Below are positions 10,493-40,590 of a stretch of DNA of 40,643 nt, in pieces. The stretch is from the NCBI GenBank assembly GCA_015061335.1, contig SUWT01000012.1, positions 1-40,643 on the forward strand, read 5' to 3'. The DNA comes from Lentimicrobiaceae bacterium. Its GTDB lineage: Bacteria > Bacteroidota > Bacteroidia > Bacteroidales > F082. A program made the position numbers and the translations under genes. Numbering within the stretch: position 1 is the stretch's first letter; each line of letters begins with the position of its first letter. The notes below the pieces were generated by a model. That model was given only the letters and a program-made list of their open reading frames with translations. It was not told the DNA's origin and ran no database searches.

Positions 10493-12106
10493 ATGAGATA
10501 CTTAAAATTTTTATTGTTATTTGTAGTTATTTGTTCTCAATTAATTACTAATGCTCAGGCTGTTAAGCAGGAGACCCAGATAAACCCTCAGACTACATTG
10601 CAGAAAATGTCGATGATGTATTATCTGATAGATAAATTTTATGTTGATACTGCAAATTTAGAGCAGCTTACAGAAGATGCTATTGTCGCTATTCTCAAGG
10701 AATTAGATCCTCATTCGGCGTATATTTCCAAGAAGGATGTCGAGAAGGCGAATGAGCCTTTGGTCGGCAGCTTTGAAGGTATAGGAGTGACTTTTCAATT
10801 GTTTCAGGATACTATCTTGGTGATTTCACCAGTTCCAGGAGGACCGTCTGATAAGGTCGGAATCATGGCAGGCGACAAAATCGTTAAGATTGATGGGGAA
10901 GATGCTGTTGGAAAAAAGATCAGCAATGAGTATGTTATGGAACATCTTAGGGGCAAGAAAGGAACTGTAGTCACGCTAGGCATCAAGAGAGGTAAGAGTA
11001 ATGAAATAATTGATTTTGAGGTTGTTAGAGACAAAATACCATTGAATAGTATTGATGCAGCATTTATGGTTGATAAAAATGTCGGCTATATTAAGTTGGA
11101 TCGTTTCGCGAAGACTTCAATGACGGAGTTTGAAGAGTCGCTGGAGAAATTGAAAAAACAAAAGATGAAGTCGTTGATACTTGATTTGAGAGGAAATAAC
11201 GGCGGTTATCTCAATATTGCGGTAGAGTTGAGTAATCAGTTTCTTAAGAAAGACCAGACAATAGTTTTTACAGAAGGATTAAAGAGTCCGAAACAGATTT
11301 TTAACACTGAAAAAAATGGAGATTTCACTGATGGTAAACTTGTTGTTTTGATTGATGAAGGCTCCGCCTCGGCAAGTGAGATAGTGTCGGGCGCGGTACA
11401 GGATTGGGACAGAGGCGTTTTGATAGGACGTAGGTCGTTTGGTAAAGGATTGGTACAGAGACCGTTCAATCTTCCTGACGGGTCTGTGGTGCGATTGACA
11501 ACAGCACGTTATTATACACCAACGGGAAGATGTATCCAACGTTCATACGATAAGGGCTCTGAAGATTATTACAATGAGATGACCAAGAGAATGAAACATG
11601 GAGAATATTATCATGCGGATAGTATTCATTTCCCTGATTCTTTGAAGTATTCTACCATGTTGAGCGGTCGTACGGTTTATGGAGGTGGAGGTATTATGCC
11701 AGATATCTTTATGCCTGTTGATACAACCTTCGGTACTAAATTGTATGTGGATCTCGTCAGAAAAGGAATTTTCAATCGTTTTACAGTTGATTATGTGATG
11801 GATCATAGGAAGGATCTTATTGAGAAATATCAGAATTTTGACAAATTTAACGAAGGTTTCTTTGTCAATGAAGATATAATGCAAGCATTTAGGAAATTGT
11901 CGGAGGAAGAAGGCATTGAGTGGAATGAAGAGCAATTCTTACGTTCAGAGTCGATGATAAGATTGCAAATCAAAGCACTTATTGCTCGTAATGAGTGGGA
12001 TATGGAAAAATATTATCAGGTTATAATGAAGCAAGATAAGATGATAGAAAAGGCGGTTGAAATATTGAACGACAATAATCAGTATAGGCAGTTGCTGGGA
12101 AGATGA
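10493..12106 (+). CDS. ctpA: S41 family C-terminal processing peptidase
   Basis: Secreted or periplasmic serine protease that trims C-termini (CtpA/Prc family). A signal peptide (MRYLKFLLLFVVICSQLITNAQA) precedes a short helical region, a PDZ domain at about residues 90-180 and the S41 core. The Ser/Lys catalytic machinery is present. S293 in GSASASE, D304 in QDWDRG and K318 in FGKGLVQ have spacings of 11 and 25 residues, matching the catalytic Ser, Asp and Lys of E. coli Prc. The C-terminal 140 residues are a helical extension. Length, 537, is normal for Bacteroidota. It lies just before the gingipain cluster but is separated by a terminator. Confidence 0.94.
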   Translation: MRYLKFLLLFVVICSQLITNAQAVKQETQINPQTTLQKMSMMYYLIDKFYVDTANLEQLTEDAIVAILKELDPHSAYISKKDVEKANEPLVGSFEGIGVTFQLFQDTILVISPVPGGPSDKVGIMAGDKIVKIDGEDAVGKKISNEYVMEHLRGKKGTVVTLGIKRGKSNEIIDFEVVRDKIPLNSIDAAFMVDKNVGYIKLDRFAKTSMTEFEESLEKLKKQKMKSLILDLRGNNGGYLNIAVELSNQFLKKDQTIVFTEGLKSPKQIFNTEKNGDFTDGKLVVLIDEGSASASEIVSGAVQDWDRGVLIGRRSFGKGLVQRPFNLPDGSVVRLTTARYYTPTGRCIQRSYDKGSEDYYNEMTKRMKHGEYYHADSIHFPDSLKYSTMLSGRTVYGGGGIMPDIFMPVDTTFGTKLYVDLVRKGIFNRFTVDYVMDHRKDLIEKYQNFDKFNEGFFVNEDIMQAFRKLSEEEGIEWNEEQFLRSESMIRLQIKALIARNEWDMEKYYQVIMKQDKMIEKAVEILNDNNQYRQLLGR

Positions 12107-12128
12107 AAGCATCCAAATAAATGATCTG

Positions 12129-12160
12129 AGAGAAAGTCTTATGGCTTTCTCTTTTTTTTT
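12129..12160 (+). terminator. Intrinsic terminator after ctpA
   Basis: An 8-base stem pairs AGAGAAAG with CTTTCTCT around an eight-base loop and runs into a long T tract. It closes the ctpA unit 22 bases after its stop. Confidence 0.88.
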
Positions 12161-12202
12161 GAAATTATTAGTATTAAGTAAGGATGGTGTAAGAAAAAAC
12201 AG

Positions 12203-12210
12203 TATATTTG
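12203..12210 (+). promoter_or_regulatory. -7 element for the Lys-gingipain-like gene
   Basis: TATATTTG, giving a leader of about 50 bases. The leader holds a small inverted repeat at 12216-12228 (TCGAA, TTT, TTCGA). No clear -33 box is visible. Confidence 0.5.
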
Positions 12211-12268
12211 TAGGCTCGAATTTTTCGATGAAAGAATATAATAAATAATCAAAATCTAACAAACAAAA

Positions 12269-15200
12269 ATGAAAAAGATGCAAAAGTCTATTTTTAGAAA
12301 GATTGCGCTAGCATGCATGGTGTTATTATTTGGAACACAAGTGTTTGCGCAAGGACGCATTGAACTTAATCCAAGTTCAAAAGGTGTACAGATTTCAGAA
12401 TCCAGTTTCAGTGGATTTAATTCTACATTCTCATTCAGCAGCTTAGAAAGTAATAATGTAATGACAGAAGCTGGTGAATTTTCTGTTATAACAATTGCAA
12501 AAACTGTTAATGGTGGTGAACTTGGCGGTCCTGCATTGCCAATCGCACGTGAACTTGTCGCTGTTCCATTTGGTGCAACACCTGTAGTAAAAGTCGTTAA
12601 CTATAGTACAACTGACTATAAACTCAGTGATTATGGTATCGGAAGAGTTTATCCTCAACAACCTTCATACAGCAAGGATACAAAATTTGAGGATATGGTT
12701 TTCCATTATAATGAAAAAGAATATCAAAGCAGAGCTTTTGCGACAGCTCCAGAAGTGTCATTCAAAGTCATGGGAACAATGCGTGGTGTACAACTCGGTG
12801 CATTACAAGTTGAACCAGTTAGTTATGATGCAGCAAGTAACACAATACGTGTATTTAACGATATTCAGTTAGAGGTTGTGTTTGAAAATGCTGATATAGC
12901 ACTTACAGAAGAGACTTTGATTAAAACTTATTCTCCATATTTCGATGTTATTTACAAACAATTATTCAATACTAGAGCTATAAACGATGTTTATGAGGAT
13001 CATCCTGATCTTTACAAAACACCTGTACAAATGCTTGTTATAGCAAATCGTATGTTTGAAGAAGTTATGCAACCATGGTTAGAATGGAAAACACAAAAAG
13101 GTTTCTATGTAACACTCAAATATACCGATGAACTTGGTAGCGGTACAGCTAACGATATTCAAGCTTTCATTCAAGAACAATATGCAGCTAATACTCCATC
13201 ATTCGTCATCATCTTCGGTGATGAAGATCAAGTAGCTCCAAGTAGAAACTCTGGTGTTGAGTCTGGTCGTGTAACAGACCTTTATTATGCAAGTGTTGAT
13301 GGTGATGAATATCCAGATATTTACCACAGCCGTATGGCATGTGAGACAGTAGATCAAATGGCAGCTCTCATCCACAAGATTTTACAACATGAACAATATA
13401 CAATGCCAGATCCATCATATCTTAGCAATGTATTGTTGATAGCAGGTGCTGACTGGAACTGGAATCCTATGGTAGGTCAACCTACAATTCAGTATGCATC
13501 AAACTATTACTACAATGCAGAACATGGCTTTGAGAATGTATATGAATATTTAGATAGCTATTCAGGATGTTATTCACATTTGGATACAGGTGTCGCTTTT
13601 GCGAACTATACAGCACACGGTAGCGAGACAAGCTGGGCAGATCCTAACTTCTCTGTATCAGATGTTAATAATTTGACAAATGTTGACAAATATTTCTGGG
13701 CAATGGGTAACTGCTGTAATGCAGCTGACTGGGGATATAACTCAACATGTTTTGGTGAAGCCATGATCCGCGGTGAAGAAAAAGGAGCATGGGGCTATAT
13801 TGGATCATGTCCTGTAACATATTGGTGGGAAGACTATTACTTTGGTGTTGGTGCTACAAGTGTAACAAACCAAATGCCAACAATGGAACAAACCACAATG
13901 GGTAACTACGACGCTCTTTGGATGGAAGATACATATAATGTATTGGCAGCTGTTCCATTTACAGGAAACTTGGCTGTAGCATACGCACATACAGAAGGCG
14001 GATATTCAACATCAGCATCTGTAAAATATTATTATGAAGCATATCACACATTAGGTGACGGTTCTGTTATGCCATATAGAGCACAACCAACAGACAATAA
14101 CGTCACACACCTCCCAACATTACCTATAGGTATTGCTAATTACACAGTGTCAGCAACTCCTGGTTCATACGTAGGTATTTCAAAAGACGGTGTTTTGTAT
14201 GGCGCAGGTATGATCGATGAAACAGGTACAACAGACATTATATTAGAACCTATTACATCAGGTGGTGACGTGACAATCGTTGTTACACATCCAAGTCACA
14301 TTCCATATATCACAACAGTACCAGCAGCAGCATTGGATGGTCCGTTCATCGCAGTTGATTCATATTCACCAGCAACAGCTCCTGTTGATGAAGAAGTATC
14401 ATTCTCAGTTGTATTCAAAAATGTTGGTACAGAAACAACATCAGGTACAACAACTGTTACATTAAGCAGCGAAAATCCTAATATCACAATCACAGATGCA
14501 GAAGCTTCATTCGATGCATTAGCAGCCGAAGCTGTTGTTGAATTAGCTGATGAGTTCTCATTTACTATTTCAGAAAATGCTGTTAATGGCGATGTTATCG
14601 TTGTAAATTGCGTAGCAACATGTGGTTCAGAGTCATGGGAAGGCAAGATGACAATTACCGTAGGTACTCCTATCCTTGAATTTGAAGGATTTTCATGGGC
14701 AGGCTCATATGAACCAGGTGAGACATACACAGTGGCAGTTTCATTCAAAAATAAAGGACGTTATATGGCAACAAATGCAGCTGTAGCTATTTCTTCAACA
14801 AGTCAATATCTCACATTTGCAGAAGAAACATTTGAAGTCGGTACAATAGATCCAAGTGGTATAGCAACAGCTTTATTTGATGTTATAGTATCATCATCAT
14901 GTCCTTCAACAGAAGTTCTAGATCTTACCTTCGACATTACAGCAGATAATGCAAATCCTGCTCAAGGTACAGGTGCAATGTCTAATACATGTAATGTAGT
15001 ATTCGATTTACATGACTCATACGGTGATGGCTGGAATGGCGCTAAGTTAATAGTATCATTCGATGATGGAACTGAAACTCAAAACCTTACAATTGGTAGT
15101 GGTGGCTCTTCAGCAAATTATGTTCTTACAATAAATGTAGGTACACATGTTACAGTTACTTTCGATAGTGGCTCTTATGACTCAGAATGTTCATTTACTA

Positions 15201-15787
15201 TAGCATACGAAGATGGTGCAACAATTTACCAAAGCCAAGGTATTCCTTCAGAAGGAGTAGTATGTGAATTTGACGTTAACTGTGCTGGAGGTGCAGCACT
15301 CGCTCCTGTTGAAAACTTAGAAGCTGATGCAGAACAACTTGGTCAAGTGACACTTTCATGGACAGCACCAGAAGGTTATGTTAACTTCTACGTATTACGT
15401 AACGGAGTCCAAATCGCTGAGACAACAGAAACAACATACGTTGACTCAGGTCTCGAATCAGGTACATATACATATTCTGTAATTGCTAACTATGAAGAAG
15501 GTCAATCAATTCCAAGAATTATTATCGTTGAAATGTTTGATAATGTTGGTGAAAATGCAGAAGTGATGTTTACAATCTATCCAAATCCTGCAAAAGATCA
15601 TATCAATATCTTAACAAATGCTTCAAAATACGAGTATCAAATCATAAATAGCATCGGTCAAGTTGTCTTGAGTGGTGTTTCAAATGGTAGCAATCAAGTG
15701 TCATTAAGCGACATAGAAAACGGTATGTATTTCTTGAAAGTCGTTTCTGATGGTCAAATCTCAATTAATAAGATCTTAGTTCAATAA
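12269..15787 (+). CDS. kgp: Lys-gingipain (Kgp)-like C25 cysteine protease with T9SS sorting domain
   Basis: Secreted cysteine protease predicted to cut after lysine. Order: signal peptide to about residue 28 (ends VFAQ), propeptide to about 236, C25 catalytic domain, Ig-like domain (ISKDGVLYG, about 570-650), two CARDB-like domains, a domain around HDSYGDGWNG (915-924), FnIII (1011-1087), type A sorting domain with YPNP at 1104-1107 and terminal KILVQ. Catalytic residues align with P. gingivalis Kgp: H450 in YTAHGSE, C483 in GNCC and D395 in GADWNWN. H450 to C483 is 33 residues, as in Kgp H444 to C477. T448 and D522 (WWEDYY) match the S1 residues T442 and D516 that bind lysine. Arg236 is the basic residue nearest the expected activation site. 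It probably shares a transcript with the next protease. Confidence 0.93.
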   Translation: MKKMQKSIFRKIALACMVLLFGTQVFAQGRIELNPSSKGVQISESSFSGFNSTFSFSSLESNNVMTEAGEFSVITIAKTVNGGELGGPALPIARELVAVPFGATPVVKVVNYSTTDYKLSDYGIGRVYPQQPSYSKDTKFEDMVFHYNEKEYQSRAFATAPEVSFKVMGTMRGVQLGALQVEPVSYDAASNTIRVFNDIQLEVVFENADIALTEETLIKTYSPYFDVIYKQLFNTRAINDVYEDHPDLYKTPVQMLVIANRMFEEVMQPWLEWKTQKGFYVTLKYTDELGSGTANDIQAFIQEQYAANTPSFVIIFGDEDQVAPSRNSGVESGRVTDLYYASVDGDEYPDIYHSRMACETVDQMAALIHKILQHEQYTMPDPSYLSNVLLIAGADWNWNPMVGQPTIQYASNYYYNAEHGFENVYEYLDSYSGCYSHLDTGVAFANYTAHGSETSWADPNFSVSDVNNLTNVDKYFWAMGNCCNAADWGYNSTCFGEAMIRGEEKGAWGYIGSCPVTYWWEDYYFGVGATSVTNQMPTMEQTTMGNYDALWMEDTYNVLAAVPFTGNLAVAYAHTEGGYSTSASVKYYYEAYHTLGDGSVMPYRAQPTDNNVTHLPTLPIGIANYTVSATPGSYVGISKDGVLYGAGMIDETGTTDIILEPITSGGDVTIVVTHPSHIPYITTVPAAALDGPFIAVDSYSPATAPVDEEVSFSVVFKNVGTETTSGTTTVTLSSENPNITITDAEASFDALAAEAVVELADEFSFTISENAVNGDVIVVNCVATCGSESWEGKMTITVGTPILEFEGFSWAGSYEPGETYTVAVSFKNKGRYMATNAAVAISSTSQYLTFAEETFEVGTIDPSGIATALFDVIVSSSCPSTEVLDLTFDITADNANPAQGTGAMSNTCNVVFDLHDSYGDGWNGAKLIVSFDDGTETQNLTIGSGGSSANYVLTINVGTHVTVTFDSGSYDSECSFTIAYEDGATIYQSQGIPSEGVVCEFDVNCAGGAALAPVENLEADAEQLGQVTLSWTAPEGYVNFYVLRNGVQIAETTETTYVDSGLESGTYTYSVIANYEEGQSIPRIIIVEMFDNVGENAEVMFTIYPNPAKDHINILTNASKYEYQIINSIGQVVLSGVSNGSNQVSLSDIENGMYFLKVVSDGQISINKILVQ

Positions 15788-15797
15788 TTATGGATAA

Positions 15798-15824
15798 AAA
15801 GGGCAGGTTTTATTCTTGCCCTTT
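15798..15824 (+). other. Stem-loop between the first two protease genes
   Basis: AAAGGGCA at 15798-15805 pairs with TGCCCTTT at 15817-15824 around an 11-base loop. There is no proper T tract after it and no TAnnTTTG element before the next gene. It may cause partial termination or protect an RNA end, rather than separate two units. Confidence 0.5.
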
Positions 15825-15837
15825 ATTAAATTTAAAT

Positions 15838-18800
15838 ATGATGAAAAAGTCCTTACTAGTATCATTTTTTTTGTTAGCAACAACCTTTGGTTTTGCTCAA
15901 GAATGGTTTGGAGTTAAAAGTAGTACTCCAACTTCGTTTCAGAAGACTTTGATTTCGTCAACTGAAGATGAGATTGTCGTTGGTGTTAAAGTTGATGGTT
16001 TTAATGCAACAGCAGTTAAGACTGATAAAGGAGAACAAGTCGTTATAAGTGCAGATGACATGGCTTCAATGCTCATTAAAGGTGCACCAGACGTTCCTAT
16101 GTTCCCAATACCTATGATTATAGGTGATAGAGCGGAAATGCAGGTTAGTGTCATAGAATCAGAATATACCGATTTTGAAGGTATAGAAGTGGCTCCGTCA
16201 AAAGGTAACTTCAGCCGTCAAATCAATCCTGATGATGTAGAATATGTGTATGGTGATATGTATCAACAAGATGCATTTTATCCTGCAACTCAAGCATCAT
16301 TGGAATCACCATATATTTTGCGTGATTTCCGCGGTCAAAACTTGATGGTTTATCCATACGCTTATAATCCTGTAACAAAGACATTACGTGTTTATACAAA
16401 ACTCGTTATTTCAGTAAATAAAGTTGGTGATAATGGCGAGAATCAAAAGGTTTCACGTAGAAGTAATTCTATTGAAGCAGCTCCTGAGACATTCGCTGCC
16501 TACGAACGTCGTTTCATAAATTATCCTTCAGCATCAAAATATGATTTCATAGTTGACGAAGGTGAAATGCTCATCGTTTGTGTTGATGAATATATGGAAG
16601 CTGTTCAACCATTGGTGGATTGGAAGAACATATCAGGTCGTCCTACAACAATGGTAGGTGTATCAGAGACAGGAACAGAAGATGACCTTAAAGCATATAT
16701 CCAAGATTATTATGCATCACATCCAGACCTTACATATTTGCTTTTGGTTGGTGAACATAATAATCTTAAGGCTCACACAGTTCCAGGTGGTAGATCAGAT
16801 AACTTCTACGGTATGTTGGAAGGTGATGATTATTATGAAGAAATCTTGGTAGGTCGTTTGCCTGTTAATAGTGTTCAGGATGCTGAAAATCAGGTGGCGA
16901 AGACTATCTATTATGAACGCAACATTGATGAAACAGCAACATGGGCAACAAGAGCTGTTGGTATTGGCGCTGACGAAGGTGCAGGAATGGGCCATTATGG
17001 TGAAGCCGATTACGAACACATGGATTTTATCAGAGATACACTTATGCATTATACATATACAGAGGTGTCTCAACATTACGCATACATAAATAATCCTACT
17101 GCTGCAACTATGATTGAGGACTTTAATACAGGTGCAACGGTAGCTAACTATTGTAACCACGGAAGCCCTACATCATGGGCAGTTGCTAATTTTAGTAACT
17201 CTCATATTCACCAGTTGACCAATGATAATAGATTGCCATTTATTTGGTCTGTAGCATGTAATAATGGTCAGTTCGACTATGATGAGTGCTTCGGCGAGGC
17301 ATGGATGAGAGCAACAAACTCTTCAACAGGTGCTCCAACAGGTGCTATCGGCGGTATGTTCTCATGGATTTCACAACCATGGCTTCCTCCAATGTTTGGA
17401 CAAGATGAAATGAATGCTATCTTGACAGAATGGCGTGATGGTTATAAACATACCTTAGGAGGTGTGTCGGTCAATGGTAATCAGTACGTACTTGATATGG
17501 CTCCAGGAGATGCTGGCTCTACACACAATACTTGGCTTCTTTTCGGTGATCCATCATTGATGGTTAGAACAGATGTGCCTCAAAATATGAATGTTACAGC
17601 TAGCCCTTCTGTACTTCTTCTAGGTATGACATCACTTACAGTTAATGCTGATGCAGAATTCGGTATCGCAACATTATCAATGGACGGTGAGGCGATAGCT
17701 TCAGCTTACGTGAATAATGGTGTCGCAGAACTTTCATTTCCTGCTCTTGCAAACGTTGGAACAGCAAAACTCGTTGTTGTGGGTTATAACAAAGTTACTA
17801 CAGAAATGGATATTATGATCAATCCTGCTGAAGGTGCTTTTTTGGTTAATGATGGATATGTCCTCAACGATGATAACGGACAATTAGATTACGGTGAAAA
17901 TATTAAACTTAGCATTAATGTAGAAAATGTCGGTGTTGAACAAGCAAATGACATATCAGTCGAACTTACAACAGATTCAGAATATATTACCTTAAACGAT
18001 AATACTGAAACAATTGATGGTATAGCTGCTGGTGAGACTATCACTCTTGAAGAAGCATTCGACTTTGATGTGGCTTCTAATGTGCCAGACCAAACCACAA
18101 TAGAGTTCGTCGTGGTTTATACCTCAGGATCAGATGTGTGGGAATCTAAGATAATTATGAAAGCTAATGCTCCAAAATTAAAATCTTCAAGTATTGCATT
18201 AGAAAACAATGTTATGCCAGGTGAGACTGGAAAACTGATCCTTGTTGTTAATAATGACGGTCATAGTGATGCTCATGACCTTGTAGCAGAATTGACAAGT
18301 AGTTCATCAGATCTTCAATTTACAAATGTCTCAATATCTTCAGAAGATATTGCAGTAGGTGAAGATGTGACAATAGAAGCTGAGTTTGATGTCGCTTCAT
18401 CAGTGCTGGAAGGTACACTTATAGAAGTAGGTATTAACGTTGCAGCAGGACATTATACCATGAATTCTGTTTATAACATTAATGTTGGTAATGTAACTGA
18501 AGGTTTTGAATCAGGTGACTTCTCTGCATACGATTGGCAATTCTCAGGTTCCGCTCAATGGACTGTGACAAGCAATTATTCATACGAGGGTACATATAGC
18601 GCTAAATCGGGTGCTATAGGAAACTCTGAATCAAGTAGTTTGACGCTAACCATAGAAGTGTTGTCAGATGGTGAGATGAGCTTCTATTGTAAAGTTAATT
18701 CAGAATCAGGCTATGATAAATTAATATTCTATATCGATAATGTTCCTCAGGACGATTGGTCAGGTGATGTGAGTTGGTCTTTGCAAACATTCCAAGTTAC

Positions 18801-19395
18801 ACAAGGAACTCATACCTTCGAATGGAAATATTCAAAAGATATTTCTCAATCAAGTGGAGAAGATTGTGCTTATATAGATAATATTACATTCCCTCCTGTC
18901 AGCGTAGTTGAATTACTTGATCCTATTGCAGAATTGAAAGCTGAAGTTAATGGTAATACAGTTACTTTAGACTGGACTCCAGTAGATGATGCAGAATACA
19001 TCATCAAACGTGATGGTGCTGAAATCGCTACTACATCATCAACAACATACGAAGATGTCTTAGACGAAGATGGCATATACATGTATAGTGTAATCGCAAA
19101 GGTCGGAGACTTCTATTCACTTCCTGCAATCGTAACAGTAACTGTAGGTACTGTTGACATCATCGAAATTGAATCTGTTAAATTTGATATCTATCCAAAC
19201 CCTACAACAGGTATTGTAAATGTAGGTGTTAATACAGTATTTGATGCTAATGTCTATAACTACCAAGGTCAGATTGTTATGAGATTAACAGACAATAATG
19301 GTCAGATAGATATGTCAGCACTCCCTGCTGGTCTTTATCTCTTAGAAATAAGAGCTAATGACAAAGTAGCAGTAGAAAAGATCATCCTTAAATGA
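15838..19395 (+). CDS. Arg-gingipain (Rgp)-like C25 cysteine protease 1 with T9SS sorting domain
   Basis: Secreted cysteine protease predicted to cut after arginine. The frame opens at 15790, but MMKKSLLVSFFLLATTFGFA at 15838 is the signal peptide. Propeptide runs to about residue 234 with the Rgp-like stretch YILRDFRGQN. By alignment with RgpB the catalytic pair is H441 and C474 (spacing 33, as RgpB H211 and C244). D391 in GEADYEH matches D163, the Arg-binding acid, and W515 before LPPM matches W284. After the catalytic domain come an Ig-like domain, two CARDB-like domains, a cleaved-adhesin-like region opening FESGDFSAYDWQ, an FnIII domain and a sorting domain (YPNP at 1119, end KIILK). The residue before the conserved Y235 at the activation site is K234, not Arg. 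Confidence 0.93.
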   Translation: MMKKSLLVSFFLLATTFGFAQEWFGVKSSTPTSFQKTLISSTEDEIVVGVKVDGFNATAVKTDKGEQVVISADDMASMLIKGAPDVPMFPIPMIIGDRAEMQVSVIESEYTDFEGIEVAPSKGNFSRQINPDDVEYVYGDMYQQDAFYPATQASLESPYILRDFRGQNLMVYPYAYNPVTKTLRVYTKLVISVNKVGDNGENQKVSRRSNSIEAAPETFAAYERRFINYPSASKYDFIVDEGEMLIVCVDEYMEAVQPLVDWKNISGRPTTMVGVSETGTEDDLKAYIQDYYASHPDLTYLLLVGEHNNLKAHTVPGGRSDNFYGMLEGDDYYEEILVGRLPVNSVQDAENQVAKTIYYERNIDETATWATRAVGIGADEGAGMGHYGEADYEHMDFIRDTLMHYTYTEVSQHYAYINNPTAATMIEDFNTGATVANYCNHGSPTSWAVANFSNSHIHQLTNDNRLPFIWSVACNNGQFDYDECFGEAWMRATNSSTGAPTGAIGGMFSWISQPWLPPMFGQDEMNAILTEWRDGYKHTLGGVSVNGNQYVLDMAPGDAGSTHNTWLLFGDPSLMVRTDVPQNMNVTASPSVLLLGMTSLTVNADAEFGIATLSMDGEAIASAYVNNGVAELSFPALANVGTAKLVVVGYNKVTTEMDIMINPAEGAFLVNDGYVLNDDNGQLDYGENIKLSINVENVGVEQANDISVELTTDSEYITLNDNTETIDGIAAGETITLEEAFDFDVASNVPDQTTIEFVVVYTSGSDVWESKIIMKANAPKLKSSSIALENNVMPGETGKLILVVNNDGHSDAHDLVAELTSSSSDLQFTNVSISSEDIAVGEDVTIEAEFDVASSVLEGTLIEVGINVAAGHYTMNSVYNINVGNVTEGFESGDFSAYDWQFSGSAQWTVTSNYSYEGTYSAKSGAIGNSESSSLTLTIEVLSDGEMSFYCKVNSESGYDKLIFYIDNVPQDDWSGDVSWSLQTFQVTQGTHTFEWKYSKDISQSSGEDCAYIDNITFPPVSVVELLDPIAELKAEVNGNTVTLDWTPVDDAEYIIKRDGAEIATTSSTTYEDVLDEDGIYMYSVIAKVGDFYSLPAIVTVTVGTVDIIEIESVKFDIYPNPTTGIVNVGVNTVFDANVYNYQGQIVMRLTDNNGQIDMSALPAGLYLLEIRANDKVAVEKIILK

Positions 19396-19415
19396 GATTG
19401 ATATTTTTCATGGTT

Positions 19416-19450
19416 AAGGAAGATGGGATTTTCTCATCTTCCTTTTTTTT
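19416..19450 (+). terminator. Strong intrinsic terminator after protease 1
   Basis: A 10-base stem, AAGGAAGATG with CATCTTCCTT, extended by a G-U and a G-C pair and followed by T8. It ends the first two-protease unit. Confidence 0.92.
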
Positions 19451-19485
19451 ATTTAAAAAAATTTAACTTACATTGATATATTTTT

Positions 19486-19493
19486 TAAATTTG
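19486..19493 (+). promoter_or_regulatory. -7 element for the lipoprotein-barrel pair
   Basis: TAAATTTG followed by C, 49 bases before the start codon. No -33 box at standard distance was seen. Confidence 0.5.
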
Positions 19494-19542
19494 CAGAATT
19501 GTATTGAAAATTAATCAATGTATAATTTAAAATTTATAAAAC

Positions 19543-20652
19543 ATGAAAAGATTTTTACCATTCTCTTTTAAAAGCTTGACATTGCTTATCGCGCTTAATT
19601 TTTTAGTCTCATGCGATAGCGAAGTAAATAAGATTGATGTTAACAACCAATTTGCGATACAATTATTTACAGACACGGTAAGAATGAGTGATCTGTTAAC
19701 AATGGTTGACTCAACAACATTGGAATATTTTAAGATAGATGAATATGGAGAAATATCCTTGTTTTTCTCAGACACTATCAATGATGCTATAAGTTCAGAA
19801 GATGTCTTATCTGGTATGACAAAATTTGATTTTATTGATACAAAAGAGATTAGTGTTAATTTTCCAAATCTTTCAGGAAATCTGGAAATTATAGAACCGG
19901 AATTGAGCTTTAAATATATCAATACTTTTGATTTTGAAGCGACAGGAGTCATAGACTCAGTATTTTTTACAAATGCTTTAGGAAATAAAATCAGTTTGCT
20001 TGAAAATTGGACTACTATAGAAAGACCTTTGCCGCCAACGGGTAATACAAGCGCTGAACTTACAAATATTGATGATTATGTTGTTGATAATTTTAATCTT
20101 TTAGATGACTATAGAAAAGTAACTTTTAATGGAAATATTAACTTTGATGCTGATGATGTAGATTATAACACAATTACAGAAGATTCTCATCTGGATTTTA
20201 TTACGGAAATAAGTCTTCCGTTAGAGTTTGTCATAGAGAATTTGATTTTTAACAATATTTACGATTTCAGCATTGAAGCTGATGATGATGAAAATTCAGA
20301 AGGAATTAATCTGGATGGAGATTTTGATGAAATTGAATTTAAATTTGTTTGTGTGAATACTCTTCCTATTCAGGTGAAACCGCAGATATATATCGTTCAA
20401 GATAATACAGTTGTAGATTCTTTATTTGTAGAGGATTCTTATATACATGCTGGCTCTGCTGAGAACCCCACAGAAGATGTTATAATCGTTAAGGTTGTCG
20501 ATGATAAATTACAAAAGATCAGAGAGGCTGATCAAGTTATGCTTAATGTTGGCTTGACATCTTTGGGAAGCAATGTGGTTTTAAATGCCGATGATTATTT
20601 CTTCTTGAGAGTAGGAATGACAACAAAGACTTCAGAAATTTATGTAGATTGA
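19543..20652 (+). CDS. Lipoprotein of unknown function
   Basis: 369 residues with a lipoprotein signal: the hydrophobic stretch LTLLIALNFLVSC has a lipobox LVSC, giving lipidated Cys24, followed by DSE. Negatively charged residues just after Cys favour surface or outer-membrane export in Bacteroidota, though the full surface-export signal is not certain. The rest is acidic (DADDVDYN, EADDDENSEG) and looks beta-rich, with no domain I recognise. The DUF5723 gene starts 24 bases later, with no terminator between, so the two are almost surely co-transcribed and may form an outer-membrane pair. The pair is flanked on both sides by Arg-gingipain-like genes. Confidence 0.82.
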   Translation: MKRFLPFSFKSLTLLIALNFLVSCDSEVNKIDVNNQFAIQLFTDTVRMSDLLTMVDSTTLEYFKIDEYGEISLFFSDTINDAISSEDVLSGMTKFDFIDTKEISVNFPNLSGNLEIIEPELSFKYINTFDFEATGVIDSVFFTNALGNKISLLENWTTIERPLPPTGNTSAELTNIDDYVVDNFNLLDDYRKVTFNGNINFDADDVDYNTITEDSHLDFITEISLPLEFVIENLIFNNIYDFSIEADDDENSEGINLDGDFDEIEFKFVCVNTLPIQVKPQIYIVQDNTVVDSLFVEDSYIHAGSAENPTEDVIIVKVVDDKLQKIREADQVMLNVGLTSLGSNVVLNADDYFFLRVGMTTKTSEIYVD

Positions 20653-20676
20653 TTTATAATTTTAAATTAATGTATC

Positions 20677-22071
20677 ATGAAAACAATATATAGATTATTC
20701 GTGATATTGGCATTGTCGTTCGTAGCGTTGAATGCAAAAGCTCAAAACGACGGTATGGCTATTACATTATTACCTAACTCTTTGTATAGTAATTATTTCA
20801 ATCCAGGTATTCGTGTTGAGTCGAAGGGTATGATAGGTATCGGCTTTTCTAATATTGGAGCTTCTGTATATAATTCCAGTGTGAGATATAATAATATATA
20901 CAATTTTGAAAACGGAAAGGCTGTCTCAATAAACGCTAATAAGCTTGTAAACAGTTTAAACGAGCATGACAACTACATAGGTACTAACATCTCTATGGAT
21001 CTCTTGGGTTTGGGATATAGGATAACAGATAAGTTATATCTTGATCTTAATTGGAGAGTTAAGAGTAACGGAGAATTTCATTATTCAAGAGATTTTGTGG
21101 GCTTCTTCATCAATGGTAATGGCAATTATATGGGAGAGGAGAACTATGCCGATTTCACCTTTGGTCTTGATATAAATATCTTTTCTGAGATTTCCGTCGG
21201 ATTGCAATATGATATAAATGAAAAACTGACAGTTGGTGTCAGACCAAAATTGTTGGCAGGAGTGCTTAATGCGAGTATAAATGATGATAATACAAAAATT
21301 TATACTGATTCCGATACATATGAAATGATAGGAGATATTAATCTTAATACTAAGGTATCAAGTATCTTGGATGCTGATTTAGATAAATTGTCGGAAAGCG
21401 TCCTTTTCCAGGAAGGCTCGGTTTCTTTAACCGAACTTATGAAATTTAAAGATAATTATGGATTTGGCGTTGATTTTGGTGCTTCATATACTTTTAACGA
21501 GCATTTTGGTGTAGCAGCAGGAGTTTATGATTTGGGCTTTATCAAGTGGAAAAATACAAAGGAGAAATATGTCGAGAAAGAAAATGTGGTAATCAGTGAA
21601 CCTATAGCTGGTGATTTTGATGCTTTGTTAGATATGAATCTCGATTTGTCGGAATTGTATAAGAATCTTTTTAGAGATGTATGGGGAGCAGATACACTTC
21701 ATTCTGCCGATGATTATACAACCTCATTAAAGACAAGGATTATACTTCAAGGATATTATGAGTTAAATTCTTTCGCCAGATTTACCGCAATTAGTCAGAT
21801 GTATTATGTCAATCAAAAGTTACGCCCAGCATTAACTTTGGCATATAGCGGTTCTTTCCTCGATATCCTTAACGTTACAGCCAATTATACCTTATCTAAA
21901 TACTCAGGTAACTACTTAGGTGTAGGATTGGGTATTAATGTGGCATTCATGAATATTTATGTTGTGACAGATAATATAATGATATTGAGTAATATAGGAG
22001 CTTCGGCATCAAAGCTTCTCACATCGTACGAAAGTGCTAATCTTAGATTTGGTATTGTTTTTAGTCTGTAG
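20677..22071 (+). CDS. DUF5723-type outer-membrane beta-barrel protein
   Basis: 464 residues with a signal peptide (MKTIYRLFVILALSFVALNAKA, then Q). The mature start, LLPNSLYSNYFNPGI, resembles the DUF5723 family of Bacteroidota outer-membrane proteins, which has no assigned function. Many amphipathic strands follow, such as ADFTFGLDINIFSEISVGLQYD and FGVDFGASYTFNEHFGVAAGV. The last residues, LRFGIVFSL, form a closing strand, though the end residue is Leu rather than Phe. It is the second gene of a two-gene unit with the lipoprotein. A role in anchoring or exporting the neighbouring proteases is possible but not shown. Confidence 0.8.
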   Translation: MKTIYRLFVILALSFVALNAKAQNDGMAITLLPNSLYSNYFNPGIRVESKGMIGIGFSNIGASVYNSSVRYNNIYNFENGKAVSINANKLVNSLNEHDNYIGTNISMDLLGLGYRITDKLYLDLNWRVKSNGEFHYSRDFVGFFINGNGNYMGEENYADFTFGLDINIFSEISVGLQYDINEKLTVGVRPKLLAGVLNASINDDNTKIYTDSDTYEMIGDINLNTKVSSILDADLDKLSESVLFQEGSVSLTELMKFKDNYGFGVDFGASYTFNEHFGVAAGVYDLGFIKWKNTKEKYVEKENVVISEPIAGDFDALLDMNLDLSELYKNLFRDVWGADTLHSADDYTTSLKTRIILQGYYELNSFARFTAISQMYYVNQKLRPALTLAYSGSFLDILNVTANYTLSKYSGNYLGVGLGINVAFMNIYVVTDNIMILSNIGASASKLLTSYESANLRFGIVFSL

Positions 22072-22099
22072 TTTGATATTATTTTTATATATTTTTTGT

Positions 22100-22128
22100 A
22101 GCGGTATTTTATAATGCCGCTTTTTTTT
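22100..22128 (+). terminator. Intrinsic terminator after the barrel gene
   Basis: AGCGGTAT pairs with ATGCCGCT (one G-U) around TTTATA and is followed by a run of T. It lies directly against the -7 element of the next gene. Confidence 0.88.
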
Positions 22129-22129
22129 G

Positions 22130-22137
22130 TAAATTTG
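22130..22137 (+). promoter_or_regulatory. -7 element for protease 2
   Basis: TAAATTTG followed by C, 22 bases before the ATG. It begins one base after the T tract of the preceding terminator, so the upstream promoter half would fall within the hairpin. Confidence 0.55.
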
Positions 22138-22159
22138 CAAAATATAAATAATTATTAAA

Positions 22160-25100
22160 ATGAAAAAGTCTATCTTTACTTTATTACTGTTATTATTATT
22201 ACAATCGACTTATTGTCAGGAATGGCAATTAAATAATTTTAATTCAGATGAGGTGTATTCGGCACGATTACTTTCATCGACTGAGGAGTCAATAATAGTG
22301 GAAATAACTCTTAATGGCTTCAGTACCAGTGAGGTGGAAACTCCAAAAGGTAATGCCATTATTATTAATGCAGAGGAGATGTATCCGCTTTCTGAGGCTG
22401 GAGATCCTAATATCCCAAGCTTGTCAATACCATTGATTATTAATGATATATATAAGATGGATGTTAGGGTTGATGATGCTGAATATGTTGAATATCAGGG
22501 TGTTGAAATAGCTCCATTTAAAGGGCATTTCCCTCGTTCAATAAATCCCGATGACGTTCCTTATACATATTCCGAGGTGTATGAAAATGATGCATTTTTC
22601 CCTGTTTCACAAGTTAAATTAGACGAACCATATATCTTGCGCGATTTCAGAGGTCAAAATCTTAAGGTTACACCTTTTGCATATAATCCTCAGACAAAAG
22701 TTCTGAGAGTTTATAATAAAATTATCGTCGAGGTTTTTAGCTCTGATATTGATAATTATAATATTATCTCCAGAAAATCTAATATCATTAAACTTGATAA
22801 TGATTTTAAGCATATTTATGAAAATAGATTCTTAAATTATTCAGAATCAGGCGTAAAGTATGATGTTTTTGAAGAAGAAGGCGACCTTCTCATAATTTGC
22901 CATGATGAGTTTATGGATGCTATGGAACCGTATGTAGAATGGAAAACAACCATCGGACGTAAGACTACAATTGTAGGAACTAGTGTCGCAGGAACAACCG
23001 AAGATGATATAAAATCTTATATCTCAGAACAATACGATATAAATCCAGATCTGACACATGTCTTATTGGTAGGAGATTCATATCATATTCCAGGTAAATA
23101 TATTCCTGCAGGTACATATTCAGGTTGTTCAGACTGGTGGTATGGTCAATTATCGGGCAATGATTATTACAACGAACTTATTATAGGTCGTTTTTGTGTT
23201 GAAGAAATTGATGAAGTAAATACGCATATCGACAAAGTTATTCATTATGAAAGAGATATTGATGCCTCTGATACATGGTTGACTGTAGGACAGGGCGTTT
23301 CCAAACGTGAGGGCGTTGGAGGTCATTATGGAGAAGATGATTATGAACATATTGATAATATCAGGGATGATTTGTTGGATTATAATTATACACTTGTTCA
23401 TCGTGATTATGCTAGTGTTTCAGGTGTTTCTTCTTCAGCAGCCATTATAAGTGAACATATTAATGCTGGCGTAAGTATAATCAATTATTGTAATCATGGA
23501 TCGCCATCATCATGGGGAGTGTTTTCATACGATAATGATGATGTCAATGCTCTCGTCAATGATGATAAACTGCCATTTATTATCTCAGTAGCATGTAATA
23601 ACGGACAATATGACTATCATCGTGACTTGTGTTTTGCCGAGACATGGATGAGAGCTACAAATAATTCTACCGGCAATCCAACAGGAGCAATAGGAGGTGT
23701 CTTTTCATATATATTGCAACCTTGGATACCACCTATGTATGGTCAGGATGAGATGGTAGATATTTTAGTTGAATCGTATTCGAATAATATAAAACGCACT
23801 ATGGGTGGTGTGGTCTTAAATGGTAATATGAAGATACTTGATATTGGAGGTAATACTTTAGAATATTGGGCAACATATAACGCATGGAATATTTTTGGTG
23901 ATCCAACATTGACATTACGTAATGATGTGCCATCTAATATGCAGGTTTCTCATAATGACAATATTTCTATTAATTCTACAAGCTTTGTCGTCAATGCGGT
24001 AGATGCAGATGGTGCTATTGCAACCTTGACAAAAGATCATGAGATCATGGGCTCAGCTATAATCAATAATGGAAGTGCAATAATTAATTTCAGTGCTCCT
24101 GATGTCACAGGAGAAGCAACACTTTCTGTCTTTGGCTATAATAAATTGACATATCTTACTACTATTGATATTATTGATGGAGGAACAAATGCACTGTCTG
24201 TTAGTCTTAGTGCAAATCCCGATGTTATAGCATTAGGCGCTACATCAACATTGACAGCTAATGCAGAAGGTGGTGATGGTACTTATTCATATTCATGGTC
24301 ACCATCAACATCATTAGATAACGCTAATATCCAATCGCCATTGGCAAATCCAATCACAACAACAACTTATACATGTACTGTATCTGATGGAACAGAAACT
24401 GTCGATGCTTCTTTGACATTGATAGTAGTACTTCCTCCAACAGCTTTGACAGCTAATGTTGATGGCGATAATGTAGAATTATCATGGCAGGCTCCAGAAT
24501 ATGTTGACTCATATAATATTTATCGTGATAATGAATTAATAGCATCAGATATTAGTAATACTACATATACAGAATATGATCTTCCAGAAGGTTTTTATGA
24601 ATATGCGGTAACTGCCAACTATGAAGGTGTTGAGTCGCCAAAAAGTGATGTGGCTACTACATTTGTAGAAGAATTTGTCGTGACAACTTATGCTAATCCA
24701 TCTATAATTATTGAAACTCATCAGACTACAATTTCTGCATATGCGTCGGGAAATGGTCCGGTATCATATAGTTGGACACCCGCAGATGATCTTGAATACC
24801 CTAATAACTCATCTACATCAGCATCACCTATAGTGACGACAACATATACGGTGTTTGCCGAATGCGGAACGCAATCAGCAACAGCAGATCTTACTGTTTA
24901 TGTTGTTGAAATTCCTAAGGGATTGACAGTGACAATAGAAGATAATAATGTTAGATTGCAATGGAATGAGGTAGATCTAGCCGAATATTATGTTGTTATG
25001 CGAGATGGTTACGTATTGAGCTCTTATGTTCCAACAACAACATATTTAGATGAAGATCTTGAAGAAGGTAGTTATTGTTATAGTGTTAAATCTGTCCGCG

Positions 25101-25726
25101 ATCACTTGACAACACCAGCTTGTGATGAAATTTGTGTCGAAATAGGTGGTGATGGTTGCGAGCCTCCAAAAGATATTACAGCTCAATACTATTGGTACGA
25201 CGGCGAGTTTGGGGCATTGATAGATTGGAATAGAATAGAGACAGCTGAGACTTTAACAGAATATAGAATTTACAGAAGTAAAGATAATATTAATTATGAG
25301 CTTGTTGGCACTCTCGCAAATGTGCCAGGTTTAAATCATTATCAATATTCTGATATGAATAATGCTATAGGTACATATTATTATAAGGTGTCGGCATATT
25401 ATGCAGGTATCGATTGTGAGTCGGAATTTGGTATGGCAGCTAATTCAACCAACGATTATGTGATGATAGACATAACATCTGTGGATGGTATTTCTGATAA
25501 TGATATTGTGATTTATCCTAATCCTGCATACGACAAACTTTGCGTTAAGGCGGATCATATCACATCATTGACCATAGTCAATATGATGGGTCAGATTGTT
25601 ATGAGACAATATTGTGATTCCGATGAGCTAACTATAGATCTGGGAAATTTACATTCAGGAATGTATGTATTACAAATTGAGAGCAAGTCGGGATTATTGA
25701 GCAGACGTATTAATATTGTGAAATAA
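22160..25726 (+). CDS. Arg-gingipain (Rgp)-like C25 cysteine protease 2 with T9SS sorting domain
   Basis: 1188-residue secreted protease, paralog of the one at 15838. Signal peptide MKKSIFTLLLLLLLQSTYC is followed by a propeptide with YILRDFRGQN. By alignment with RgpB, H446 and C479 are the catalytic pair (33 apart), D394 in GEDDYEH is the Arg-binding acid and W522 before IPPM matches W284. The activation site reads GVK then YDV, so P1 is K233. After the catalytic and Ig-like domains the architecture differs from protease 1: PKD-like domain (YSYSWSPSTSL), FnIII, second PKD-like (VSYSWTPADDL), two more FnIII domains, and a sorting domain with YPNP at 1119 ending INIVK. PKD-like domains often bind surfaces or substrates. 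It has its own -7 element, and the RNase gene starts 13 bases after it. Confidence 0.93.
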   Translation: MKKSIFTLLLLLLLQSTYCQEWQLNNFNSDEVYSARLLSSTEESIIVEITLNGFSTSEVETPKGNAIIINAEEMYPLSEAGDPNIPSLSIPLIINDIYKMDVRVDDAEYVEYQGVEIAPFKGHFPRSINPDDVPYTYSEVYENDAFFPVSQVKLDEPYILRDFRGQNLKVTPFAYNPQTKVLRVYNKIIVEVFSSDIDNYNIISRKSNIIKLDNDFKHIYENRFLNYSESGVKYDVFEEEGDLLIICHDEFMDAMEPYVEWKTTIGRKTTIVGTSVAGTTEDDIKSYISEQYDINPDLTHVLLVGDSYHIPGKYIPAGTYSGCSDWWYGQLSGNDYYNELIIGRFCVEEIDEVNTHIDKVIHYERDIDASDTWLTVGQGVSKREGVGGHYGEDDYEHIDNIRDDLLDYNYTLVHRDYASVSGVSSSAAIISEHINAGVSIINYCNHGSPSSWGVFSYDNDDVNALVNDDKLPFIISVACNNGQYDYHRDLCFAETWMRATNNSTGNPTGAIGGVFSYILQPWIPPMYGQDEMVDILVESYSNNIKRTMGGVVLNGNMKILDIGGNTLEYWATYNAWNIFGDPTLTLRNDVPSNMQVSHNDNISINSTSFVVNAVDADGAIATLTKDHEIMGSAIINNGSAIINFSAPDVTGEATLSVFGYNKLTYLTTIDIIDGGTNALSVSLSANPDVIALGATSTLTANAEGGDGTYSYSWSPSTSLDNANIQSPLANPITTTTYTCTVSDGTETVDASLTLIVVLPPTALTANVDGDNVELSWQAPEYVDSYNIYRDNELIASDISNTTYTEYDLPEGFYEYAVTANYEGVESPKSDVATTFVEEFVVTTYANPSIIIETHQTTISAYASGNGPVSYSWTPADDLEYPNNSSTSASPIVTTTYTVFAECGTQSATADLTVYVVEIPKGLTVTIEDNNVRLQWNEVDLAEYYVVMRDGYVLSSYVPTTTYLDEDLEEGSYCYSVKSVRDHLTTPACDEICVEIGGDGCEPPKDITAQYYWYDGEFGALIDWNRIETAETLTEYRIYRSKDNINYELVGTLANVPGLNHYQYSDMNNAIGTYYYKVSAYYAGIDCESEFGMAANSTNDYVMIDITSVDGISDNDIVIYPNPAYDKLCVKADHITSLTIVNMMGQIVMRQYCDSDELTIDLGNLHSGMYVLQIESKSGLLSRRINIVK

Positions 25727-25739
25727 TAACAAGAATGAT

Positions 25740-27140
25740 ATGGAAATCAAATTTATAGGTGCAGCTAGAGAGGTTACTGGCAGTAAGCATCTCATTACTA
25801 CACGTCATGGGAAAAAGATTCTTTTAGACTGTGGAATGTTTCAAGGTAAGGGCTTGGATACTGATGCTTTGAACCGTAATACTATGGTTGATCCTGCTGA
25901 TATAGACCATATTATTCTTACCCATGCGCATGTTGATCATTCGGGTTTGATACCTTATTTTTATAAGAGGGGGTTTAGAGGTTCTGTTATATGTACGCAG
26001 GCAACTCGTAATCTATGTTCTATTATGTTGCCCGACAGTGGTTTTATCCAAGAGAATGATACATATTGGTTTAACAAGAAGCGGGCCCGTCAAGGATTGA
26101 AGCCCGTCGAGCCCATATATACGGAGAAAGAAGCCAGAGAATGTATAGAGCTCTTTATTAGCGTGCCGCTTAATCGTCAATTCTATATCGATAATAATAT
26201 ACGAGTAAAATTTACTAATACAGGTCACTTGTTAGGTAGTGCATCAGCGACCATAGAAATCGATGAATATGGCGAACTGACACGTATAGGATATACCGGA
26301 GATATAGGTAGAAGTAATAATTATTTACTTCGCGCCCCTGATGCGTTTCCTCAATGTGACTACCTCATAGTGGAAAGTACATACGGCGACAGATTGCATC
26401 AAGATAAGCAACTGTCTGAAGATGAATTGTTGAGAATTATCAGACATACCTGTATCGAAAAAAAAGGAAAACTCATCATACCTTCTTTCGCTATAGGTAG
26501 GACACAAGAAATAGTGTATATCTTGAATAATTTCTATAATGAAGGTAAATTGCCTAATATCCCAATTTATGTTGATAGTCCATTGGCTGTGAACGCTACA
26601 AATATTTTCCGTCTTCATCTGGATTTATTTAATAAAGATGTGGCTGAAGTCCTTGAACATGATGATGATCCATTCGGTTTCGGTACTTTGAGATATATCA
26701 CTAATGTAAATCATTCAAAGTCGTTGAATAATCGTCAGGAGGCATGTATAATCATCTCTGCATCAGGAATGATGGAAGCGGGAAGAGTTAAGCATCATAT
26801 AGCAAATAACATTGATGATCCTAAGAACTCAATTTTGGCGATAGGCTATTGCGCTCCGACGACATTAGGAGCTAGAATTCTCGGAGGCGAAAAACAGATC
26901 TCTATATTTGGAACACCTCATACCGTAAATGCAGAGGTGTTTAAGATAGATGCTTTCAGCGGTCATGCCGATTATCAGGAAATGGAACAATATCTACGTT
27001 GTCAAAATCCAGAAAAAGTGAAAAAATTATTTATCGTTCATGGTGATTACGAGGCACAGGTTCCATATAGTAAAGTGCTCGCAAAAGCAGGCTTTAAAGA
27101 TATAGTGATCCCGACACCAGGAGAGGTTTTTCAATTATGA
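25740..27140 (+). CDS. Beta-CASP metallo-beta-lactamase RNase
   Basis: Predicted zinc-dependent RNA nuclease of the CPSF73-like bacterial group (MBL fold, beta-CASP and RMMBL parts). The zinc motif is HAHVDH at residues 62-67. Further beta-CASP marks are VESTYGDRLH, IPSFAIGRTQEIVYIL, ASGMMEAGRVKHHI and DAFSGHADYQEM, and IVHGD near the end. The 466 residues fit this family. It has no signal peptide and is cytoplasmic. It follows protease 2 after 13 bases with no visible promoter or terminator, so it is likely read from the protease promoter. The stop lies 8 bases from the convergent transporter stop, with no clear hairpin between them. Confidence 0.93.
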   Translation: MEIKFIGAAREVTGSKHLITTRHGKKILLDCGMFQGKGLDTDALNRNTMVDPADIDHIILTHAHVDHSGLIPYFYKRGFRGSVICTQATRNLCSIMLPDSGFIQENDTYWFNKKRARQGLKPVEPIYTEKEARECIELFISVPLNRQFYIDNNIRVKFTNTGHLLGSASATIEIDEYGELTRIGYTGDIGRSNNYLLRAPDAFPQCDYLIVESTYGDRLHQDKQLSEDELLRIIRHTCIEKKGKLIIPSFAIGRTQEIVYILNNFYNEGKLPNIPIYVDSPLAVNATNIFRLHLDLFNKDVAEVLEHDDDPFGFGTLRYITNVNHSKSLNNRQEACIIISASGMMEAGRVKHHIANNIDDPKNSILAIGYCAPTTLGARILGGEKQISIFGTPHTVNAEVFKIDAFSGHADYQEMEQYLRCQNPEKVKKLFIVHGDYEAQVPYSKVLAKAGFKDIVIPTPGEVFQL

Positions 27141-27148
27141 TCTGAGAA

Positions 27149-27811
27149 TTATAAACTTTTCTTTATGAAACTTACACCTGCATAGGCGAGGGGAGTCCCA
27201 AAGAAGACCTCAATGCCGAGTTTCATGAAATATTGTGTGGCAATCATCATGAAGATGTCGCGTGTCGTCATTGTTCCAACGAAGGCTATCAAGACGAAAG
27301 GTACAGTATCAAACATGTGTGCGGCTATGGAACTTCCTATGGTTCTTGTCCATAAAGGCTTGTCGTGGAGCTTGGCTTTAATCTTGTCCATAAGCCATGC
27401 GTTTGACAACTCACCAAGAAGGAAGCCCGTTAATGACGCTATCACAATGCGAGGTACGTATGTGAAGACATTGTCGTAGGCGACAGCTGTTCCCTCTAGA
27501 TAATCAGGCGATGGTAGCCATACCGCAATCTGTGTGAACAGCATCATAATGATGTTACAAAGGAATGTCATCCAAATGACCTTCTTCGCTTTTTGATAGC
27601 CCCATATCTCCGTAAGTATGTCGCCGAGCATATAGGCGAAAGGGAAAGTGATGGTGCCTGCATCGAAATAAATGATGTTAAAGAAACTGATTACTTTTAC
27701 TGCCATGATATTCGACACTAAGTAAAGAGTGACGAAGAGCGCAGTCACAACCATAAATGACATCTCGCCATTTGTTCGGTTTTTTAAAGGGTTTTCCGAG
27801 ACCTTGTTCAT
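27149..27811 (-). CDS. yhhQ: Queuosine precursor transporter (YhhQ/VUT family)
   Basis: Inner-membrane protein of 220 residues, the usual length for the VUT_1 family, which takes up queuosine precursors such as preQ0. About six hydrophobic helices are visible. Family marks are FDAGTITFPFAYMLGDILTEIWGY, here at about residues 50-73, and ASLTGFLLGELSNAWLMDKIK further on. It lies downstream of the dnaA unit but has its own -7 element at 27836-27829. Whether it prefers preQ0, preQ1 or queuine cannot be read from the sequence. Confidence 0.9.
   Translation of the reverse strand: MNKVSENPLKNRTNGEMSFMVVTALFVTLYLVSNIMAVKVISFFNIIYFDAGTITFPFAYMLGDILTEIWGYQKAKKVIWMTFLCNIIMMLFTQIAVWLPSPDYLEGTAVAYDNVFTYVPRIVIASLTGFLLGELSNAWLMDKIKAKLHDKPLWTRTIGSSIAAHMFDTVPFVLIAFVGTMTTRDIFMMIATQYFMKLGIEVFFGTPLAYAGVSFIKKSL

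Positions 27812-38616: not shown

Positions 38617-40590
<1,974 letters not shown>

Follow-up and report, generated by a model that had tools for sequence, protein, structure and literature searches.

The 40,643-nt stretch of SUWT01000012.1 (positions 1–40,643; hereafter the window) carries the genes for one Lys-type and two Arg-type gingipain-like proteases, which would be secreted as zymogens by the type IX secretion system (T9SS), and the residues at their prodomain junctions are best explained by the Lys- and Arg-type zymogens activating each other, a reading to which a probability of about 50% is given. According to this scheme each prodomain would plug its own S1 pocket with the residue preferred by its own enzyme, Lys in the Lys-type and Arg in the Arg-types, and the bond between prodomain and enzyme would follow the residue preferred by the other type. 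Reciprocal activation had been proposed in a first-pass annotation of the same DNA, and in the sequences compared here the junction pattern is clear, conserved, and stronger than was stated there.

The proteins of the window were compared with solved structures by HMMER and their domains were assigned by Pfam. The Kgp-type (Lys-gingipain-like) zymogen of 1172 residues is encoded at 12269..15787 and matches the PDB structures of Kgp (4rbm, E 1.5e-147) and of the Kgp prodomain (5mun, E 4.5e-44). Rgp-type zymogen 1 (15838..19395, 1185 residues) and Rgp-type zymogen 2 (22160..25726, 1188 residues) match RgpB (4ief_B, E 2.4e-92 and 4.1e-88, respectively) and its prodomain (4ief_A, E 5.2e-34 and 1.2e-32), all three genes being located on the forward strand. 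Each zymogen has the same order of domains, all over the Pfam cut-off, namely, Propeptide_C25, Peptidase_C25, the immunoglobulin-like (Ig-like) Peptidase_C25_C, and a T9SS type A tail. AlphaFold models built from the window sequence and homologs match structures 4rbm and 5mun in the case of the Kgp-type and 4ief in the case of Rgp-type 1, and by fold alignment the Kgp-type catalytic domain is 48-49% identical to that of P. gingivalis Kgp.

The specificities predicted in the first-pass annotation are backed independently by the residues of the S1 pocket and by the loop residue that would plug it. The S1 pocket of Kgp is stated to comprise Thr442, Asn475, Trp513, and Asp516 (PMC6426963), and all four are kept in the HMMER alignment of the window Kgp-type, where the S1 and active-site residues (codons within 13610..13834, forward strand; Kgp numbers in brackets) are T448 (T442), H450 (H444), N481 (N475), C483 (C477), W519 (W513), and D522 (D516). 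Similarly, Asp163, Gln282, Trp284, and Met288, which are given for the S1 pocket of RgpB (PMC4357240, PMC9559808), are kept together with His211 and Cys244 in both window Rgp-types, and in Rgp-type 1 (17008..17394, forward strand; RgpB numbers in brackets) they correspond to D391 (D163), H441 (H211), C474 (C244), Q513 (Q282), W515 (W284), and M519 (M288). Across the open reading frames (ORFs) of the loci collected, in sets that hold the window's own copies more than once, Asn475, Trp513, and Asp516 are invariant in 127 Kgp-type ORFs and Thr442 is Thr in 126 of them, while all 72 Rgp-type ORFs have Gln282 and Trp284, 69 have Asp at the Asp163 position and the other 3 Glu, and 62 keep Met288.

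As for the loop, Arg126 of the prodomain is inserted into the enzyme's own S1 pocket in the RgpB zymogen (PMC4357240), and in Kgp an inhibitory-loop Lys is predicted to insert in the same manner (PMC3677877). In HMMER alignments the Kgp loop Lys (K129 in prepro numbering, as deduced from chain length) corresponds to K136 of the window Kgp-type (codon 12674..12676), and RgpB Arg126 corresponds to R127 of Rgp-type 1 (16216..16218) and R126 of Rgp-type 2 (22535..22537), all on the forward strand. All 360 listed homologs carry the self-type residue at this loop position, Lys in 120/120 Kgp-type and Arg in 240/240 Rgp-type sequences, as do the locus ORFs (Lys in 127/127 and Arg in 72/72, respectively).

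The junction residues were found where the first-pass annotation had placed them, and their codons, also on the forward strand, were confirmed in the sequence. The predicted P1 residue of the Kgp-type junction is R236 (12974..12976; YKQLFNTR236-AINDVYEDH), and those of the Rgp-types are K234 before Y235 in Rgp-type 1 (16537..16539; NYPSASK234-YDFIVDEG) and K233 before Y234 in Rgp-type 2 (22856..22858; NYSESGVK233-YDVFEEEG). We infer from the sequences that these are the bonds cut in the cell, and that they are cut by these enzymes. The alignment of both Rgp-types with the mature start of RgpB, as given in that annotation, stands with regard to Lys before Tyr; it is not gap-free, because the window proteins have two residues fewer between the junction Tyr and the next conserved Gly, to which the Tyr is consequently nearer, and the HMMER alignments begin a few residues later.

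Conservation was assessed in the best 120 of 3391 matches for the Kgp-like protein, of 3287 for Rgp-like 1, and of 3289 for Rgp-like 2, altogether 360 distinct sequences. The junction column is basic in 97% of homologs at R236, in 96% at K234, and in 100% at K233, which is the conservation that the first-pass annotation had asked for, while among the 18 columns flanking each junction only R225 (100%) near K234, S228 (28%) near K233, and K230 (38%) and N239 (21%) near R236 exceed 13%. In the Rgp-like 1 set the K234 column is Lys in 14/14 homologs at >=70% identity over the first 720 residues, Lys in 24 and Arg in 80 at 60-70%, and one of each below 60%; in the Rgp-like 2 set the K233 column is Lys in 30/30 homologs at >=60% identity and Lys in 49 and Arg in 41 below it; and in the Kgp-like set the R236 column holds Arg in 110, Lys in 6, and neither in 4. 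Judging by these alignments, the basic junction residues are not a matter of chance, and a column held basic while Lys and Arg exchange is the behaviour expected of a P1 site.

The distance of R236 from the strict Kgp alignment, three residues, had been regarded as a weakness of the Kgp-type half of the scheme. This concern is removed by the same comparison, since R236 is basic in 97% of homologs versus 21% at N239, directly before DVY, and many Kgp-type relatives read FN-W-R-DDVY, where Arg adjoins the mature start. In the AlphaFold models both modelled junctions are predicted in low-confidence stretches between domains: R236 (model residue 215) within segment 213-217 and K234 (model residue 213) within stretch 181-215, each with a predicted local distance difference test score (pLDDT) below 50.

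Lys before Tyr is, as far as the sampled sequences indicate, not peculiar to this genome, as it is the commonest state sampled, found in 53/106 prodomain-bearing Rgp-types outside the window's clade and in 61/72 inside; what stands out is the crossed combination. The list of 53 neighbouring pairs in the window's clade contains two repeats, and among the 51 distinct pairs the residues of Rgp-type and Kgp-type are Lys/Arg, that is crossed, in 42, Arg/Arg in 6, Lys/none in 2, and Lys/Lys in 1. These pairs were largely found by the Kgp-type search and are uninformative on how frequently the two types occur together. After dereplication the clade has Lys in 61 and Arg in 11 of 72 Rgp-type junctions, and Arg in 102, Lys in 3, and no basic residue in 2 of 107 Kgp-type junctions; the second Kgp-type of the window's own genome (L004) has Arg as well. 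In a FastTree tree with midpoint root the crossed pairs form one supported clade, whose neighbours, three rows of family f49, carry Arg at the Rgp-type junction; if the midpoint root is right, this would be consistent with the Rgp-type junction having changed from Arg to Lys. The Kgp-type gene stands first in 52/53 same-strand pairs inside the clade and in 51/54 outside.

The comparison across the order Bacteroidales drew on three sources: named genomes, which contributed 77 loci; 40 relatives together with the own genome, which contributed 30; and 393 genomes sampled evenly over the order. In this last sample, where scoring was confined to the three best candidates of each genome, an Rgp-type was found in 158 genomes and a Kgp-type in 191, and 100 stretches (99 new loci and one already in the set) were picked by hand from the listed places. 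The rules for calling P1 were revised once after inspection, and where the Kgp-type linker had several basic residues the last one was taken. Outside the window's family this resulted in 54 pairs from 53 loci, 52 genomes, and 27 families, of which 13 were dropped because one of the two junction residues was non-basic, missing, or doubtful. The remaining 41 pairs are Lys/Lys (KK) in 20 cases, Arg/Arg (RR) in 15, Lys/Arg (KR) in 3, and Arg/Lys (RK) in 3 (Rgp-type/Kgp-type; Fisher p 7.5e-6), and the matching persists when counted by family majority (KK 13, RR 6, KR 2, RK 2; p 0.006) or by distinct family-state (KK 13, RR 6, KR 3, RK 3; p 0.031). A tree-based sign test of this matching on independent pairs gave 7 and 5 such pairs with median p 1 and was without power, because each of the two matching states occupies large clades. 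The order-wide matching is real as a pattern, resting on a modest number of evolutionary events, and the crossed wiring of the window's clade, as read from the junction residues, is a clade-wide exception to the shared-activator pattern of the order.

Genomes in which only one type was found were considered as well, with the reservation that genes missing from incomplete assemblies would blur these comparisons. In 47 genomes a Kgp-type was found and no Rgp-type, the Rgp query matching there with E 3e-46 or worse and mostly at Kgp-type genes. Out of the 30 loci taken from them 29 were counted, since L310 duplicates a gene present elsewhere in the set, and their Kgp junctions have Lys in 25, Arg in 1, and no basic residue in 3, versus Lys in 27, Arg in 21, and another state in 6 of the 54 cases outside the clade where both genes are neighbours (Fisher p 3e-4 without the doubtful NYK calls, 0.027 by families). 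In this sample, genomes in which no Rgp-type was found rarely have Arg at the Kgp junction. Rgp-only genomes numbered 14, of which 6 had an Rgp-type without prodomain and the other 8 had Arg in 5 and Lys in 3. The genes without prodomain (L194, L197, L198, L199, L200, and L201) are Rgp-type ORFs of about 525-530 residues that begin at the catalytic domain, and they belong to six genomes of two families in which no Kgp-type was found.

In the mechanism proposed here the first cut would fall in the plug loop and would be made by an enzyme of the same type, by analogy with Arg126 of RgpB, and the second, separating cut would fall at the junction and would be made by an enzyme of the other type. 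It is stated for RgpB that the prodomain ends at Arg229 and that the cut at the Arg126 loop is needed before the one at Arg229 (PMC4357240). Because this order holds in RgpB and both types of enzyme in the window have the loop residue of their own preference, the role of the partner would be confined to the final step and would not suffice by itself, and full activity of each type would need some activity of both. Trace activity of the zymogens could start the loop cutting; the R126A/R229A mutant of RgpB retains activity, 80-fold below that of the mature enzyme (PMC4357240). In P. gingivalis the activity of Kgp drops when Rgp is lacking and recovers on addition of Rgp (PMC10100897), from which it follows that cross-processing between the two gingipain types occurs there. 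Of the junction states of the order, KK would make the Lys enzyme the activator of both types and RR the Arg enzyme, as in P. gingivalis. Tentatively, and at somewhat less than even odds, gingipain pairs of Bacteroidales may possess an evolvable wiring set by one residue per zymogen (RR, KK, crossed, or non-basic), of which the window's clade would have fixed the crossed form as a two-key lock, where neither type matures fully without the other.

Several observations weigh against reciprocal activation. In two near relatives (L015, repeated by L271 of genome G009, and L016) the Kgp-type has Asn in place of Arg236 and is devoid of basic residues from LFN to the mature start, and the Rgp-types keep Lys; within the clade 11/72 Rgp-types have Arg at the junction; and a Lys-Tyr junction is present in three Rgp-only genomes (G057, G127, and G386). 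Ten Rgp-types of other families (L142, L144, L147, L179, L205, L208, L210, L227, L231, and L239) read Asp-Tyr, where cleavage by either gingipain type would not be expected, and a basic P1 is therefore not essential everywhere. In work of Veillard from 2019, added Rgp is said to have cut the RgpB prodomain without freeing activity. To this should be added other possible activators, as 12 further C25 proteases of the genome could act, two of them PorU, and both PorU genes are over the family cut-off. PorU is a live third activator, since it is stated to take part in gingipain prodomain removal in P. gingivalis (PMC10202324), and the prodomain must be both removed and degraded, a PorU deletion strain being without relevant RgpB or Kgp activity (PMC11285876). 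It is nevertheless rather doubtful that prodomain removal or destabilisation at the cell surface is the work of PorU or the PorU complex, with the basic junctions serving only for secondary trimming, because this would leave unexplained a linker column basic in 96-100% of homologs and the Lys/Arg pattern across genomes, and the activity loss without PorU may reflect a general failure of export and processing (PMC11285876).

Self-processing, with the Arg-types cutting themselves at R224/R225 (ERR|FINY), the Lys-type at K230 or the loop Lys, and the junction being cut later by whatever is present, is improbable, despite the fact that R225, nine residues upstream of K234, could be an Arg self-site: this position, where a helix predicted with low confidence ends in the AlphaFold model, is basic in 120/120 Rgp-like 1 homologs and is Arg in 64/72 Rgp-types of the clade. 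Outside the clade His or Gln prevails at this position, just 38% of the homologs are basic at K230, and no reason is offered for the junction column staying basic. Equally small is the likelihood of a neutral drift between the two basic residues, with cleavage left to a trypsin-like or mixed activity of broad range in the surroundings. The gut lumen contains trypsin, and the junction residue follows the overall Lys/Arg usage of the proteins (mean K/(K+R) 0.71 in KK and 0.56 in RR pairs), which explains much of the order-wide matching. However, the partner's junction residue still adds to usage (p 0.0125; usage on top of the partner's residue, p 0.16), and the best of 114 control pairs of Lys/Arg-variable columns in the same proteins reached p 0.005 versus 7.5e-6 for the junction pair, although one control agrees as often. 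Moreover, usage cannot produce the crossed state, because Lys and Arg are kept apart there in neighbouring genes of one genome; usage as the sole cause was rejected, as it covers part of the order-wide matching and not the crossed clade. Very improbable is a relaxed S1 pocket that would accept Lys and let the window Rgp-types activate themselves at K234/K233. It is prompted by the replacement of Thr209-Gly210 of RgpB, before the catalytic His, by Cys-Asn, which almost every Rgp-type of the clade carries (17152-17157 in Rgp-type 1 and the same place in Rgp-type 2), but D163, Q282, and W284 are kept and M288 mostly so, the loop plug is Arg throughout, and the same Cys-Asn is found in most Arg-junction Rgp-types of the clade. 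Since the S1 positions tabulated show no consistent difference between Lys- and Arg-junction enzymes, nothing points to the Rgp-types having turned to self-cleavage at Lys, and the attribution of the Lys junctions to a relaxed S1 was set aside as unsupported.

Compared with RgpB and RgpA of P. gingivalis (family C25), the window Rgp-types share the prodomain, catalytic, Ig-like, and T9SS domains, the four S1 residues, and the equivalent of loop Arg126, and differ in the Cys-Asn dipeptide, in the shorter spacing after the junction Tyr, in about 450 further residues between the Ig-like domain and the T9SS tail (where Rgp-type 1 has one CARDB match in Pfam, barely over the cut-off), and in Lys (K234, K233) at P1 instead of Arg229, a contrast that the first-pass annotation had drawn correctly. 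The Kgp-type shares with P. gingivalis Kgp the S1 residues, the loop Lys, and the junction Arg, the P. gingivalis prodomain ending in Arg228. It differs in reading LFN-T-R-AIN-DVY, where the solved chains (5mun, 4rbm) have LFN and one last residue before DVY, and, unlike P. gingivalis Kgp, has no haemagglutinin-adhesin domain after the catalytic domain in Pfam search at E 0.001.

Another known analogy is provided by factor XII and prekallikrein, serine proteases unrelated to C25. These two zymogens of human plasma are described as activating each other (PMC12284676); reciprocity is established by experiment there and predicted here, where the shared trait, at the level of a residue-level prediction, is that P1 of each activation bond matches the specificity of the partner. 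If true, the crossed wiring would be a bacterial counterpart of the reciprocal activation of the plasma contact system; no report of it was found in the open-licence literature searched, and the literature on gingipain activation found there concerns one oral pathogen. Since this one residue varies widely in nature, giving RR, KK, crossed, and non-basic pairs, a comparison of species could test whether gingipain zymogens are activated by the enzymes themselves or by PorU.

With regard to the genes themselves, Rgp-type 1 could be read longer from an ATG at 15790; the start at 15838 is favoured, because a terminator-like hairpin at 15798-15824 falls within the longer reading. The four best-paired hairpins of this kind within 12000-27200 lie in the gap before the Kgp-type gene (12128-12153), between it and Rgp-type 1 (15798-15824), after Rgp-type 1 (19416-19444), and before Rgp-type 2 (22100-22121), and a scan for sigma-70 promoters gave matches no more numerous than in shuffles. 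The two Rgp-type genes are separated by two other genes (19543-22071), one encoding a DUF5723 protein and the other a protein without Pfam match. No clostripain (C11), as a third Arg/Lys protease, was found in the own genome of 2.58 Mb, which has 16 C25 peptidases (contig C111, L264, and others), the two PorU genes among them being adjacent. The window also holds dnaA (28941-30362, reverse strand) and gyrB (38623-40590, forward strand), in view of which it possibly adjoins the replication origin.

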